Made by a program: the position numbers and the translations under genes | DNA from: Sporosarcina sp. NCCP-2716 | Lineage (GTDB): Bacteria; Bacillota; Bacilli; Bacillales_A; Planococcaceae | DNA length: 64,000 nucleotides | Assembly (NCBI RefSeq): GCF_023707985.1 | Contig: NZ_BRCF01000001.1 | Coordinates: forward strand, 183,967-247,966 | Direction of reading: 5' to 3' | Shown: piece by piece, positions 6,057-44,121 of the stretch | How the letters are laid out: each line of letters opens with the position of its first letter | How positions within the stretch are numbered: position 1 is the first letter of the stretch | The notes under the pieces: model-generated | The model's database searches: none | What the model was told of the DNA's origin: nothing | What the model saw: only the letters and a program-made list of their open reading frames with translations

Positions 6057-6947
6057 ATGGATATTGTAATCGGAGGAGCTGGCGCCATTGGACTGCTGAT
6101 CGGCTCCTGCCTCGCGGAAGCCGGGCATTCCGTTTCATTCTGGACGCGGCGGCCGGAGCAGGCACAGGCGCTCCGGGAAAACGGACTCGTCAGGATCGAG
6201 GGCGGATATACGGAGCGTTTCGCTGTCGGGGCATTCACTTCGGTCTGCGAGGCGCCCGCCGGAGCGATGTGGATCGCGGCCGTGAAATCCAGCGGGCTGC
6301 CGGCGCTCATCAGCCGGCTCGGGACTGCGGAGCCGCCGGGATATGTGCTGTTCATCCAAAACGGCATCCGCCACTTCGAGGAAGCGGACCGCCTGGATCT
6401 CCCGTCGTTCGGATTCGCATCGGTGACCTTCGGAGCCAGGCGTGAAAACGACTGGACGGTCCGCTGTCTCGGCAGGGGGCATATCGAAGCTGCACACTGG
6501 CAGGGGGATGCGGGACTGCTGGATACTTTGCTGCACAGCGCTTCCCCGGTGTTTCCGATCGTCCGGCAGGCGGATGCGGAATCGATGCTGTACCGGAAAG
6601 TGTTCGTCAACTGCTGCGTCAATCCGCTGACAGCGCTGCTCGGCGTCAAAAACGGGGAACTCCTGAAAAGACCGGCTGCACGTGGAATGATGGAAGCGGT
6701 ATATGGGGAACTGGCTGCAGCGTATCCGGACATCGCTGGACAGATTGCGTTCAGCGACGTGGAAGCGGTCTGCTCCAATACGGCCGGGAATGAATCCTCC
6801 ATGCTGACGGACCGGAGAAAGGGCGTGCCGATGGAGACCGATACGATCGTGACGGCAGTGATCGGCAGGCGCCGGGATGAAATGCCTATGCTCGGTCTTC
6901 TCGAATCGCTCCTGAAAGCGATTGACGAAAGGGAAGAAAGCCTATGA
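6057..6947 (+). CDS. panE: 2-dehydropantoate 2-reductase (ketopantoate reductase, YlbQ)
   Basis: NADPH-dependent reduction of ketopantoate to pantoate for pantothenate and CoA synthesis in the cytoplasm. The 296-residue protein has the Rossmann motif GGAGAIG at residues 6-12 and the conserved KVFVNCCVNPLTALLGVKNG segment. In that segment Lys181 and the following asparagines correspond to the catalytic and substrate-binding residues of E. coli PanE. I chose ATG 6057 (behind GGGGAGGTAGC) because it begins exactly at the Rossmann strand; a longer frame from 5895 would run through the preceding gene and terminator. Its stop overlaps the start of the DUF3397 gene (ATGA). Confidence 0.93.
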   Translation: MDIVIGGAGAIGLLIGSCLAEAGHSVSFWTRRPEQAQALRENGLVRIEGGYTERFAVGAFTSVCEAPAGAMWIAAVKSSGLPALISRLGTAEPPGYVLFIQNGIRHFEEADRLDLPSFGFASVTFGARRENDWTVRCLGRGHIEAAHWQGDAGLLDTLLHSASPVFPIVRQADAESMLYRKVFVNCCVNPLTALLGVKNGELLKRPAARGMMEAVYGELAAAYPDIAGQIAFSDVEAVCSNTAGNESSMLTDRRKGVPMETDTIVTAVIGRRRDEMPMLGLLESLLKAIDEREESL

Positions 6948-7423: not shown

Positions 7424-9031
7424 ATGAAAATCGCATCACGACACTTACATAGAAACGAAGTCATGGACGCTTTCGAGAACAGTCCGGAATTCACGGGGAC
7501 GTATTTCGACTACGGACGTACCGATACGGACTTCGAAGAGCGGCTGAAAGAAGTACAGGGGCGGACGTACCAGCGGGAGGAACTGGCCGGCGCCATCCGT
7601 TCATTCCTTGAACCACACGGACTGTCGGACAGCCAGGCCGCGCATCTCGACGAACTCGCGAGTGACGGGGTCGCCGTGGTCGGAGGGCAGCAGGCCGGGC
7701 TTTTGACGGGTCCTCTCTACTCCGTGCATAAGGCGATCACCGTCATCTTGCTGGCACAGGAGAAACGGCGGCAATTGTCCGTGCCGGTCATCCCGGTCTT
7801 CTGGATCGCCGGGGAGGATCACGATCTGGACGAAATCAATCACGTATTCACCGAACAGGACGGCCGTCCGGTGAAGCGCCAGTATCCGGAACGGTTCGTC
7901 CTGAAGAAGATGGCGTCCGAAACCGTCTACGATCCGGAACAGATGGAGTCGTTCATCCGCCTCGTGTTCCGGGATCACGAAGAAACGGAGTTCACGAAAC
8001 AGCTTCTCGGCGATACGCTGGAAGCGGTGAAGGCGGAACGGACATTCACAGGTTTTTTCGTCCGTCTCATGAACGGGCTGTTCCGCCACCACGGACTCCT
8101 GATGATCGACGCGGCAGACCGGTCGTTCAGGGAGCTCGAGAAAGAGTACTTCAAACAGTTCATCCGTGAATCGGCTGCGGTCGCACAGGCGGTCGCTGAT
8201 ACGGAAAGGAAATTCAGCGATGAAGGCTTCGGCATGCCGATCGAAACGGATGCCGGCGCTGCCAATCTGTTCTACAACCATGAGACAGGCCGGGTGCTGC
8301 TGAGCCGTCAGGACGGCCTGTTCGTCAGCGAAGCGGCGGGGCTCCGGTTCACTGAGGAGGAACTGCTCGCAGTGGCGGCCGAAACGCCTTGGCTCCTCAG
8401 CAACAATGTCGTGACCCGGCCGATCATGCAGGATCTTACACTTCCGGTCCTGGCATTCGTCGGCGGACCCGGTGAAATCGCGTACTGGTCGCTGCTGAAA
8501 GACGCCTTCCATCAGATCGGCATCCGCATGCCGGTCGTCGTGCCGCGGATCTCGATGACGCTCGTGAGCCGGAATGTCCAGCACGCCATGGCGAAAACCG
8601 GACTCACGATCGAGGATGTCTTCAACGGCGAAACGATCGTGAAACGGGAAGAGTTCCTCGACGAACAGCGGGATGCGGAACTGGACAGGCTTCTTGAGGA
8701 AACGGCAGGGCTGCTGCGTTCCCAATACGGAACAATCATGGATCATATCGAAGATCCTGATCTGAAGTCGCTCGCAGACAAAAACCTGGGCTATCACCTC
8801 CGGCAGGTCAAGTTCCTTTCCGATAAAGCGGAGGACGCCCTCTTCCGCAAGTATGCGGCAGCTCTCCGCAGCTATCATCTGCTGGAAGGCGATCTGTATC
8901 CGGAACGCAATCTTCAGGAGCGAGTGTACACACCGTTCAGGTATTTGAATGAATACGGACCTGGGCTGATCGACGATCTACTCGGGCAGAATATACCAAT
9001 GGACGGAAGTCATGTCATCATTACGCTGTAA
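7424..9031 (+). CDS. bshC: Bacillithiol synthase BshC (cysteine-adding enzyme, YllA)
   Basis: Last step of bacillithiol synthesis: attachment of cysteine to GlcN-malate. The 535-residue length matches B. subtilis BshC (539). Typical segments are [20 protein letters not shown] (nucleotide-binding core), [15 protein letters not shown] and [12 protein letters not shown], with a coiled-coil segment in the C-terminal third. It implies that this organism uses bacillithiol as low-molecular-weight thiol. ATG 7424 follows AAAAGGGGCTTG. It stands immediately upstream of mraZ, as in B. subtilis, and is closed by a terminator. Confidence 0.95.
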
Positions 9032-41375: not shown

Positions 41376-41379
<4 letters not shown>

Positions 41380-42002
41380 ATAAACACGAAATAGCGAAGA
41401 TCCTGCTGCATGCAGGGGCAGTGACACTGAGCCCGGATGAGCCGTTCACATGGGCATCGGGCATCCAATCCCCGATCTATTGCGACAACCGTCTGATCAT
41501 GTCGGATCCGGGCGGACGCCGCCGGGTCGCGGAAGGCATGTCGGAAGTGATCCGCACGAAGTATCCGGAAACGACTTTGATCGCCGGAACGGCAACAGCC
41601 GGAATTCCGCATGCTGCCTGGATCGCCGACATCCTCGGACTGCCGATGGTCTACATCCGTTCAAAGGCGAAAGGCCACGGACGGAGCAAGCAGATCGAAG
41701 GGAAAGCGAAGCCGGGAGACCGCGCAATCATCGTCGAAGATCTGATCTCGACAGGCGGCAGCAGCCTGACCGCGGCGGCAGCACTGCGGGAAGAAGGCGT
41801 GCATGTCGAAGGGGTCGTCTCGATCTTCACGTACGGACTCGAGAGCGCCGACCGTGCATTCGAGGAAGCCGGGCTGACGTATACGAGCTTGACGGATTTC
41901 CATGCATTGGCGGAAGTCGCCACCCGCACAGGTGCGATCCGCAAAGAATCCGTAGGTCCGCTGCTGGACTGGCACGAGAAGCTGAAAACAGGGGTTTTAT
42001 AA
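41376..42002 (+). CDS. pyrE: Orotate phosphoribosyltransferase
   Basis: Adds ribose phosphate from PRPP to orotate giving OMP. The 208 residues contain FTWASGIQSPIYCDNR and the PRPP motif AIIVEDLISTGGSS. ATG 41376 overlaps the pyrF stop (ATGA). Last gene of the operon, followed by a terminator. Confidence 0.97.
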
Positions 42003-42011
42003 GGCAAGTGG

Positions 42012-42039
42012 AGGCCGGGCGATGATGCCCGGCCTTTTT
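42012..42039 (+). terminator. Terminator of the pyr operon
   Basis: AGGCCGGGC / GCCCGGCCT perfect nine-pair stem with a six-base loop, followed by TTTTT. Confidence 0.95.
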
Positions 42040-42110
42040 GAATGGTGGAAGTGATCTACTGCGCGGTATTGGTCGGTTATTGGCGGAGCGGCAGACCGCG
42101 TGCTGGGGGA

Positions 42111-42380
42111 TTATGAGCGGAATTTGCGGGTTATGAGCGCTTTTTTGGATTTATGAGCGGTTTTTGAGATTTATGAGCGTTTCTTGCGTTTTATGAGCGT
42201 TTTCTGGAGTTTATGAGCGTTTCCTGCGTTTTATGAGCGTTTCCTGCGTTTTATGAGCGCTTTCTGGAGTTTATGAGCGTTTCCTGCGTTTTATGAGCGC
42301 TTTCGAGAATTTATGAGCGTTCCAAGCGTTTTATGAGCGTTTCCGGCAATTTATGAGCGTTTCCATCAATTTATGAGCAC
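42111..42380. repeat. 20-bp-period tandem array, 14 units of TTATGAGC
   Basis: TTATGAGC occurs at 42111, 42131 and every 20 bases up to 42371, fourteen times without a slip. The ninth base is G in all but the last unit. The second ten bases of each unit vary: TTCCTGCGTT occurs three times and TTTCTGGAGT twice in the middle, while the outer units are more divergent. The period is not a multiple of three and each unit carries TGA, so every forward frame is broken; the reverse strand carries TAA. It is non-coding and lies between the pyr terminator and the opposing rqcH terminator. Function unknown. Confidence 0.97.
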
Positions 42381-42393
42381 ATCACCCAAACGA

Positions 42394-42425
42394 CAAAAAA
42401 CCGGCAAGGCTTGAGCCTTGCCGGG
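42394..42425 (-). terminator. Terminator of rqcH (minus strand)
   Basis: On the minus strand, CCGGCAAGGC / GCCTTGCCGG with a short loop precedes TTTTTT. It starts five bases after the rqcH stop. Confidence 0.93.
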
Positions 42426-42429
42426 AACA

Positions 42430-44121
42430 TTATGCTTTCAGCTGACGCACGATCTCTTCATCTGGAGTGACGAAGACGGTCTGCTGTTCGAAATAGATGA
42501 CGAAACCGGGTTTCGAGCCGTTCGGTTTCTTGACGTGGCGCACTTCCGTGTAATCGACGGGGACGGATGCGGAGCCGCGTGCTTTGCTGAAGTACGCTGC
42601 AAGCGCCGCAGCTTCCTGGATCGTCTCGTCGTCCGGCGCGTCATCATGGATGACGACGTGGGACCCCGGGATGTCCTTCGTATGGAGCCAAATATGATTG
42701 CGAGCTGCAAGCTTCGATGTCAGCCAGTCATTCTGCCGGTTATTCTTCCCGACGGAAATCGTGATGCCCGACGAAGACACGTATGATTCCGGTTTCGGCT
42801 TCTTCGGCTTCGCTTTCTTCTTGCCTTTCCGAGCTTTCATGAGCCCGAGATCCGCCAGTTCATCCCGGATCTCATCGATATCATCGGTCGATGCCTGCAT
42901 CACCTGCTGCTTCACCATCTCGAAATAACTGATGTCCTCCGCGGCCTTCTCCAGCTGTCCCGCAATCTGCACGAGGGCGTTCTTCGCTTTCGAATACTTG
43001 GAGAAATACCGCTGTGCGTTGTCGATGGGCGACTTCCGCGGATCGAGCGGAATGGTGACCGTCGTGCCCTGTTCGTAATAGTTATCCACAGTTGCTTCCT
43101 TCTGCCCTTTTTCAATCGCGTAACTGTTTGCGGTCAACAGTTCACCATACAGCTGGAACGTATCGAGCCGTCCCGCGTCTTTCCGCTCCTTCTCGAGTTT
43201 CTGCACTTTCAGCTTGAGCTTCGCGATTTCATTGTCGAGCCAGCGCTCGAGATCGGCGGCCTGCGCCTTCACCCGTTCGCGGACCGCCCGGGCAAAGTAG
43301 ACTTTGTCCAGCAGATCGCCGAGTGTCGGGAACACGGTCGCCCGTGCATCGACATGAGTCAATTCCGCAGCTGAAAACAGCAGTTTTCCGTCCTTCTCGA
43401 CTAGGTTCGGGTGGAACGGGCCTTCAGAGAACGTCTGTACGTAAGCGCGATAGGTGCCAAACGCATCCGACCCTTCCAAGCCGCGCATCCGATAAAGCAG
43501 TTCCTCTGCATGGATCGGTGAGAATCCGGATAGTTCCCGGACGACCGACTTCGGCGAATCGAAGGAGGGGAGTAAGGTTTCGAAATCGTGTTCCGAAAGT
43601 CCAAACGGATCCGCCTTGTCCTGGGGAGGTGCCGGTATGTATGGCTGGCCGGGCATGATTGTCCGATAACTGTTGACCGACGGCGGTAAATGCTTGAGGC
43701 TGTCGATGATCATGCCGCGTTCCGGGTCGATGAGCAGGAAGTTGCTGTGGCGCCCCATGATTTCAAAAATGATCTCCCGTTCAATATCGTCACCGATTTC
43801 GTTTTTCGCACGGATCGAAAACTTCAGGATCCGGTCCGTGCCGACCTGTTCGACCGCTCTGACCGTGCCGCCTTCCAGGTGCTTCCTGAGCGTCATGCAG
43901 AACATCGGCGGCTCTGCCGGGTTCTGGATCGTTTCTTCTGTAAACTGGACGCGCGCGTAGGAAGGGTGGACGGAGAACAGCAGCTTCCGGTTCTGGCCGC
44001 CCGCCCGGATGATCAGGACGGTTTCCTGTGCGTTCGGCTGATGGATTTTCGTGATCCTGCCGTTTTCGATCGTCTGCAGTTCGCGTCTCATCGCGGTTGT
44101 GAACAATCCGTCAAATGCCAT
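42430..44121 (-). CDS. rqcH: Ribosome quality control protein RqcH (NEMF/Rqc2/FbpA family)
   Basis: Binds peptidyl-tRNA-blocked 50S subunits and recruits tRNA(Ala) to add alanine tails that mark incomplete chains for degradation. The 563-residue protein has an NFACT-N domain (MAFDGLFTTAMRRELQ opening), helical and coiled-coil middle (about 270-430, rich in Lys and Glu) and the NFACT-R domain (GITISVGKNNRQNDWLT, HTKDIPGSHVVI). The start is ATG at 44121 behind AAAGAGGAATTCAC; an upstream start at 44160 adds a tail without homology. Transcribed against pyrE and away from gmk. Confidence 0.95.
   Translation of the reverse strand: MAFDGLFTTAMRRELQTIENGRITKIHQPNAQETVLIIRAGGQNRKLLFSVHPSYARVQFTEETIQNPAEPPMFCMTLRKHLEGGTVRAVEQVGTDRILKFSIRAKNEIGDDIEREIIFEIMGRHSNFLLIDPERGMIIDSLKHLPPSVNSYRTIMPGQPYIPAPPQDKADPFGLSEHDFETLLPSFDSPKSVVRELSGFSPIHAEELLYRMRGLEGSDAFGTYRAYVQTFSEGPFHPNLVEKDGKLLFSAAELTHVDARATVFPTLGDLLDKVYFARAVRERVKAQAADLERWLDNEIAKLKLKVQKLEKERKDAGRLDTFQLYGELLTANSYAIEKGQKEATVDNYYEQGTTVTIPLDPRKSPIDNAQRYFSKYSKAKNALVQIAGQLEKAAEDISYFEMVKQQVMQASTDDIDEIRDELADLGLMKARKGKKKAKPKKPKPESYVSSSGITISVGKNNRQNDWLTSKLAARNHIWLHTKDIPGSHVVIHDDAPDDETIQEAAALAAYFSKARGSASVPVDYTEVRHVKKPNGSKPGFVIYFEQQTVFVTPDEEIVRQLKA

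Follow-up and report, generated by a model that had tools for sequence, protein, structure and literature searches.

Tandem arrays of a conserved word at a two-turn step, dispersed behind gene ends in Sporosarcina: candidate sites for a DNA-binding protein

The pyrE–rqcH Locus

Between the convergent genes pyrE and rqcH of Sporosarcina sp. NCCP-2716 lies a row of short direct repeats, which we analyzed within a 64,000-nucleotide stretch of DNA (hereafter the window). The locus comprises the following features:

41376..42002, plus strand: pyrE (orotate phosphoribosyltransferase), left neighbor; TIGR00336 above its cut-off, start picked by eye
42011..42037, plus strand: terminator-like hairpin with a T run 3′ of pyrE; recognized by eye, the terminator scan giving no score
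42044..42110, plus strand: G-rich leader ahead of the first unit; sequence and composition
42111..42378, plus strand: row of 14 TTATGAGC words, 20-bp period, 12-nt spacers; sequence and word count
42379..42400, plus strand: A/C-rich trailer past the last word; sequence and composition
42401..42424, minus strand: intrinsic-terminator-like hairpin 3′ of the NFACT/RqcH-family gene; terminator scan
42430..44121, minus strand: rqcH (NFACT/RqcH-family gene), right neighbor, convergent with pyrE; NFACT_N above its cut-off, start picked by eye

The product of the right-hand gene scores below the cut-offs of the EfbA and archaeal RqcH models; its closest named relatives are Sporosarcina proteins at 85–87% identity (loci L064–L070). 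The original prediction for this stretch described 14 copies at an exact 20-bp period, and the exact word count agrees: TTATGAGC starts at 42111, 42131, and so on to 42371, every step is 20 bp, and neither strand of the 64-kb window holds a copy beyond these 14. In 100 shuffles the word matched 0.99 times on average and 4 times at most, and TRF reports the array with periods of 20 and 60. Unit comparison confirms that similarity peaks in the middle units, as had been noticed, and the array is non-coding in that no ORF of at least 80 amino acids overlaps it. The degenerate copy TTATTGGCGG reported at 42077 is present, 34 bp ahead of the array; it looks like a chance occurrence.

Arrays across the Genome

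The window array is not unique: its genome (G000; 20 contigs, 92% complete) contains at least 37 in all. TTATGAGC-N12-TTATGAGC pairs occur there 168 times in forward and 190 times in reverse orientation (reversed control pattern, 0), and a search with an array-start pattern returned 28 places. Within 33 extracted stretches, our script recovered 37 chains, each at least three units long, with 356 units in total, which is a lower bound for the genome. Counting such arrays in the genome and its relatives had been put forward as a check on the prediction, and many others were found. Among 250 sampled genomes of the family, three-unit TTATGAGC matches occur in 16 (the window's included), all in the window's genus.

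The helical phasing that had been predicted holds almost without exception. Steps within the G000 chains are 300 of 20 bp, 18 of 21 bp, and 1 of 19 bp; when exact words were linked over any step of 15–25 bp, we obtained 269, 15, and 1, respectively, and, in a second genome of the genus (G152), 141 steps of 20 bp and 8 of 21 bp. Steps of 20–21 bp likewise hold in the relatives, so that two of the outcomes named in advance as refuting the prediction, absence of other arrays and loss of phasing elsewhere, did not occur. Given that 21-bp steps outnumber 19-bp steps, a limit of about two helical turns fits these data. Across the 334 units of exactly 20 bp, positions 1–8 carry 1.81–1.97 bits and position 9 (G) 1.56; T11, T12, and T20 carry 1.27, 1.04, and 1.44 bits, and the remaining spacer positions at most 0.8. 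The octamer is exact in 251 of 264 internal units, and 210 different 12-nt spacers occur among these 264. G152 has two unit types, TTATGAGCG and TTATGATCA, with positions 7 and 9 linked (76 and 80 units vs. 18 others), and neighboring units alternate between them in 129 of 149 pairs (L165–L184), which suggests a functional or duplication unit of 40 bp. In G000, 300 of 320 units are of the TTATGAGCG type. Two-unit duplications are visible within arrays.

The spacers also change in composition along an array, from G-rich in the first unit to C-rich in the last, with a G-rich leader and a C-rich trailer. Leaders of most G000 arrays are G-rich without sharing a common sequence; their G:C counts are 130:39 between two minus-strand genes, 360:115 between convergent genes, and 39:20 between two plus-strand genes. 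This drift is independent of the strands of the flanking genes in the three larger context classes and incomplete in the two classes with one array each; it recurs in 16 G152 arrays. Terminal inverted repeats or a closing stem were considered and rejected, leader and trailer of the same array pairing no better than mismatched pairs over 36 arrays (permutation p 0.66). A second dispersed repeat, in which a hairpin (AGAAAATGCTYCGC ... GCGAAGC) accompanies a GC-rich part, adjoins several arrays: it sits in the leaders of L043, L053, and L054 and in the trailers of L045, L049, and L054, pairs having 35–71 bp in common at 74–88% identity.

Gene Context and Replication

Neighboring genes were called with a simple ORF script, which gave both neighbors for 36 of the 37 G000 arrays: 23 are convergent, 8 antisense to both genes, 4 sense to both (one of them a doubtful three-unit chain), and 1 divergent. 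The 18 arrays in extracted stretches of G152 comprise 8 convergent, 10 co-directional, and no divergent cases. Shielding from transcription by the pyr and rqcH terminators, as originally proposed, thus fits the window site but does not extend to all arrays: that of L055 is separated from its two co-directional neighbors by 13 and 16 bp.

Orientation relative to replication was rejected as a rule, being biased but not fixed in G152 (hand tally: 12 plus and 13 minus on one replichore, 19 plus and 2 minus on the other) and mixed within contigs in G000. In 17 of 18 G152 arrays, the inferred leading strand carries the purine-rich side of the spacers, the exception being the pyrE–rqcH array, and this fits near-neutral spacers. 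Clustering around the origin in G152 is weak: 19 of 38 merged loci lie no farther than 500 kb from the inferred origin (p 0.02, with origin and locus list both approximate).

Persistence at Orthologous Sites

The pyrE–rqcH array recurs in all seven near relatives (L064–L070), with words TTATGAGC/TTATGATC. Among 21 Sporosarcina or Filibacter loci 3′ of rqcH, pyrE is the next gene in 14, which divide into these seven, one (L136) with TTATCCGC at 21 bp, and six without an array. Two of the other seven loci (L074 and L082) have a AACGCCAG array at 20 bp 3′ of rqcH, and five have none. We dropped both AACGCCAG arrays as instances of the same site: pyrE lies about 2.5 kb past the array in L074, and in L082 it falls outside the extracted stretch, the array lying behind rqcH only. 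A second persistent site lies behind lexA. There, 30 loci were obtained from 68 genomes, and the region behind the gene was readable by script in 14. All 10 relatives with LexA at least 92% identical have an array (TTATGA[GT]C in phase), the exact words numbering 3 to 32 over no more than 900 nt (one stretch stops after 164 nt); the remaining 4 readable loci (LexA below 92%) have no TTATGA[GT]C words in phase. Among the 16 loci not readable by script, G242 and G205 have ACAGTT arrays behind lexA. More broadly, 6 of 18 arrays in the G152 stretches match G000 arrays in flank and orientation (L035/L175 by trailer only), vs. a roughly guessed expectation of about 0.2, in a non-random sample whose stretches were partly chosen on known arrays.

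Word versus Spacer Conservation

Does the sequence between the words persist as well? We aligned the pyrE–rqcH arrays of six species unit by unit (L064, L065, L066, L068, L069, and L070; the GC-rich L067 and the window were excluded). Mean pairwise identity is 96.1% in the word and 68.8% in the spacer, figures that come from this one site and carry a mild bias, the word columns having been set from the consensus. Six of the eight word positions are 100% identical; position 1 reaches 93% and position 7 (G/T) 76%. The DNA from the pyrE terminator to the array is 66.8% identical (73.9% with the terminator included) and that downstream 69.0%. For five of the species (L070, of another length, excluded), codon positions 1, 2, and 3 of rqcH are 96.1, 97.7, and 65.2% identical, and in the same five the word stands at 95.9%, the spacer at 67.0%, and the flank at 65.9%. 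The word is thus conserved about as strongly as amino acid-changing sites, and the spacer about as weakly as silent sites (word 96%, spacer 69%, third codon position 65%). Across the six species, the array has one indel, compared with four in the flank upstream of it and three in that downstream. Word and spacing look to be under selection, and the spacer appears near-neutral in sequence, its length almost fixed.

Other Clades, Other Words

Arrays of the same design, one word per array with drifting spacers, occur in several families beyond the window's. Among 80 rqcH loci scanned, intergenic-looking arrays of about 21 bp were seen in Lysinibacillus (L084, L087), Bacillus ndiopicus (L105, two different words), Metasolibacillus (L112), and Bacillus sp. 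DNRA2 (L119). A five-fold TTAT pattern at 21 bp matches 100 of 253 genomes of the order, in 13 of 19 genera, a count that is not clean: in many rows from genera g10, g13, g14, g17, and g18, forward matches are no more numerous than those of the reversed control, probably because TATT occurs within arrays such as TTTATTCTACG. At class level, a four-fold TTTAT pattern matches 29 of 398 genomes and 21 of 144 genera (control, 24 genomes), and outside the window's family 15 genomes vs. 14 for the control, in 94 vs. 25 places; some of its rows are simple repeats (G004) and some perhaps coding (G133). A repeated word with drifting spacers is plain in the TTTAT-pattern sequences of G332, G344, G374, G543, G574, and G606. 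The patterns used found nothing in the remaining 153 of the 253 genomes, and TTTATC gave no match in Lysinibacillus sphaericus 2362; the arrays are therefore non-essential in Planococcaceae. Near-identical copies of one array (TTATAGGAATACTTTGAAGATTTATCGAAAC...) lie at several loci of contig C2 in G139 (Planococcaceae); these are a dispersed element, not independent arrays.

Within the window's genus, ACAGTT at 21 bp occurs in 16 of 68 genomes, at up to 101 places (G055), with a control of 0 throughout; a few rows contain a different kind of repeat, near-perfect (G249 C8, G128 C8). None of seven TTATGAGC genomes has it (G000, G152, G190, G217, G116, G157, and G213). ACAGTT matches once each in G229 and G256, whose lexA sites bear TTATGA[GT]C arrays, and G196 has both words. 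The two sets of genomes being nearly non-overlapping, clades mostly use different words in one design. In two cases a single site bears different clade words: pyrE–rqcH (TTATGAGC and TTATCCGC) and lexA (TTATGAGC and ACAGTT).

Comparison with Known Systems

In form, the arrays appear closest to plasmid iterons and parC centromeres, from which they differ in being dispersed over the chromosome. Iterons are tandem direct repeats of about 17–22 bp, helix-phased, lying at a replication origin and bound by Rep. The Sporosarcina arrays, at least 37 of them chromosomal, are not placed, as iterons are, at a replication origin accompanied by a rep gene. A mobile origin was rejected on the following searches: with the window array, the plasmid search returned seven records with E-values between 3 and 10, all of which fell short of 80% query coverage, and the phage collection gave no match; a viral contig matching a three-unit pattern was dropped as an unrelated 10-bp repeat. 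CRISPR loci have repeats of about 20–50 bp, unique spacers of similar length, and cas genes; with a word of 8–9 bp and a spacer of 12 nt the present array is, as first judged, not one of them. DNA uptake sequences are not known to form phased tandem arrays. They do resemble the Sporosarcina arrays in consisting of a short genome-wide word that differs between related clades, as the work on their dialects describes (PMC3630211). Plasmid parC centromeres are rows of direct repeats on which the bound protein, ParR, builds a higher-order complex; ParR of pSK41 binds 20-bp repeats, and the families vary in the sequence and spacing of their repeats (PMC9426499). The 20-bp step of the window array falls within the parC pattern of direct repeats phased at about 10–20 bp; its neighbors, however, are pyrE and the NFACT-family gene rather than parM and parR, and a plasmid has one locus beside parM/parR, whereas Sporosarcina has dozens of arrays.

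The nearest described repeats are the STAR elements of Staphylococcus, which share intergenic direct repeats, a conserved word, variable spacers, many loci, and a varying number (PMC3532100). STAR is a 14-bp GC-rich repeat, T(G/A/T)TGTTG(G/T)GGCCC(C/A), whose copies are separated by 40 bp or more; its loci are not common to different staphylococcal species (PMC3532100). The Sporosarcina arrays have instead an 8–9 bp word at a 20–21 bp step (TTATGAGC with 12-nt spacers in the window), sites shared between species, and clade-specific words. We found no description of these arrays among the papers listed by our open-access literature searches; most subscription journals were outside the scope of the search, and an earlier description is possible.

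A Row of Binding Sites?

We consider it fairly probable (roughly 0.6) that a sequence-specific protein binds the words of each array, which would make the arrays rows of binding sites maintained by selection. Occupancy would be cooperative and the purpose chromosome-level, such as organization, segregation, or the separation of transcription units, each specific purpose being less probable than binding itself. The conserved word of 8–9 bp would be the site of the protein; the step of 20–21 bp would place sites two turns apart, all on one face of the helix; and bound copies may touch their neighbors, giving a nucleoprotein filament or wrap like that of Rep on iterons or ParR on parC. Dozens of such arrays around the chromosome, mostly behind gene ends, would be kept by selection on word and spacing. 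A protein binding cooperatively on one helix face would require words conserved far beyond their surroundings and all in direct orientation, a step fixed at two turns, and many units at each site, as these arrays have. Against it count the G-to-C gradient along arrays, the many genomes of the family without a match, and the wholly different clade words, which require a coevolving protein or repeated replacement.

One special case of the binding-array reading, an array-bound protein that acts as a roadblock between neighboring, often convergent, transcription units, would suit the 23 convergent arrays and single divergent one among 36 in G000, and the 8 of 18 convergent with none divergent in G152. 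We nevertheless regard it as doubtful: the window site already has terminators, 10 of the 18 G152 arrays are co-directional, L055 occupies a short co-directional gap, and promoter avoidance alone would position any insert likewise. That the arrays are a neutral or selfish satellite, grown by slippage, unequal exchange, or copying and tolerated in intergenic DNA at gene ends, is improbable. Unit number does vary (3 to 32 exact words at lexA), copies do occur within genomes (two G152 arrays sharing 249 bp of leader at 98%; the near-identical copies in G139), and the distribution is patchy; yet word identity of 96% vs. 69% in a spacer at the level of silent sites, the near lack of any step other than 20–21 bp, and long persistence at the same gene pair all speak against it. 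Expansion by slippage, part of the original prediction, accordingly survives in part: it accounts for the variable word number at lexA and the two-unit duplications, but alone it is insufficient, because the word is conserved while the adjoining spacer drifts.

Still less probable is a self-recognition or DNA-uptake word, by which a clade would mark its own DNA for uptake or other recognition. One main word per genome, differing by clade, and an intergenic position would be expected of such a mark, which needs no tandem phased arrays; uptake words are scattered as single or paired copies. Least credible of all, and very improbable, is an element acting in RNA as a repeated protein-binding or structured region of the transcript. 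Lying behind gene ends, the arrays are within reach of read-through RNA. Over 34 arrays of at least six units, however, folded on both strands against two shuffle types, there is no excess stability (mean z 0.06 to 0.94, positive values being less stable than the control), and no Rfam family scores above threshold, the one match in 1.5 kb lying far below it. Moreover, co-directional G000 arrays are antisense to both neighbors in 8 cases and sense in 4, and it is hard to see what a fixed 20-nt step would mean for an unstructured RNA. RNA-level and purely neutral accounts thus fit poorly, and the preference for a DNA-level role over an RNA role expressed at the outset is upheld: the word is kept in place, the spacer is not, and the RNA folds no better than controls.

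Extending the binding-array reading, we put forward tentatively, and with the odds somewhat against it, a chromosomal system of many Bacilli in which a sequence-specific protein would polymerize on dozens of two-turn arrays behind gene ends, the word turning over from clade to clade (TTATGAGC/TTATGATC, AACGCCAG, ACAGTT, TTATCCGC, TTTATCAGCG, TTTATTCCACG, and others) and some sites staying put. In bacteria, such a system would correspond to the fast-evolving satellites of centromeres, or it would be a chromosome scaffold made of dispersed iterons. If the arrays are real nucleoprotein sites, a layer of chromosome organization has been largely overlooked in a much-studied bacterial class, and the clade-specific words would offer a natural experiment on the joint change of a DNA-binding protein and its hundreds of sites.

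The two 21-bp arrays of Bacillus ndiopicus (L105) lie at 6441–6534 and 7509–7601, about 1 kb apart, and have the unrelated words TTATTCTA and CGGGCGAA. Other tandem repeats came to light around rqcH. In Cohnella terricola (L137, 4772–4997) a different repeat of 50–51 bp lies behind rqcH, and in Anoxybacillus (L121, 4898–5215; L122, 5416–6036) 60-bp and 39-bp repeats near rqcH are coding-looking and unrelated to the arrays.
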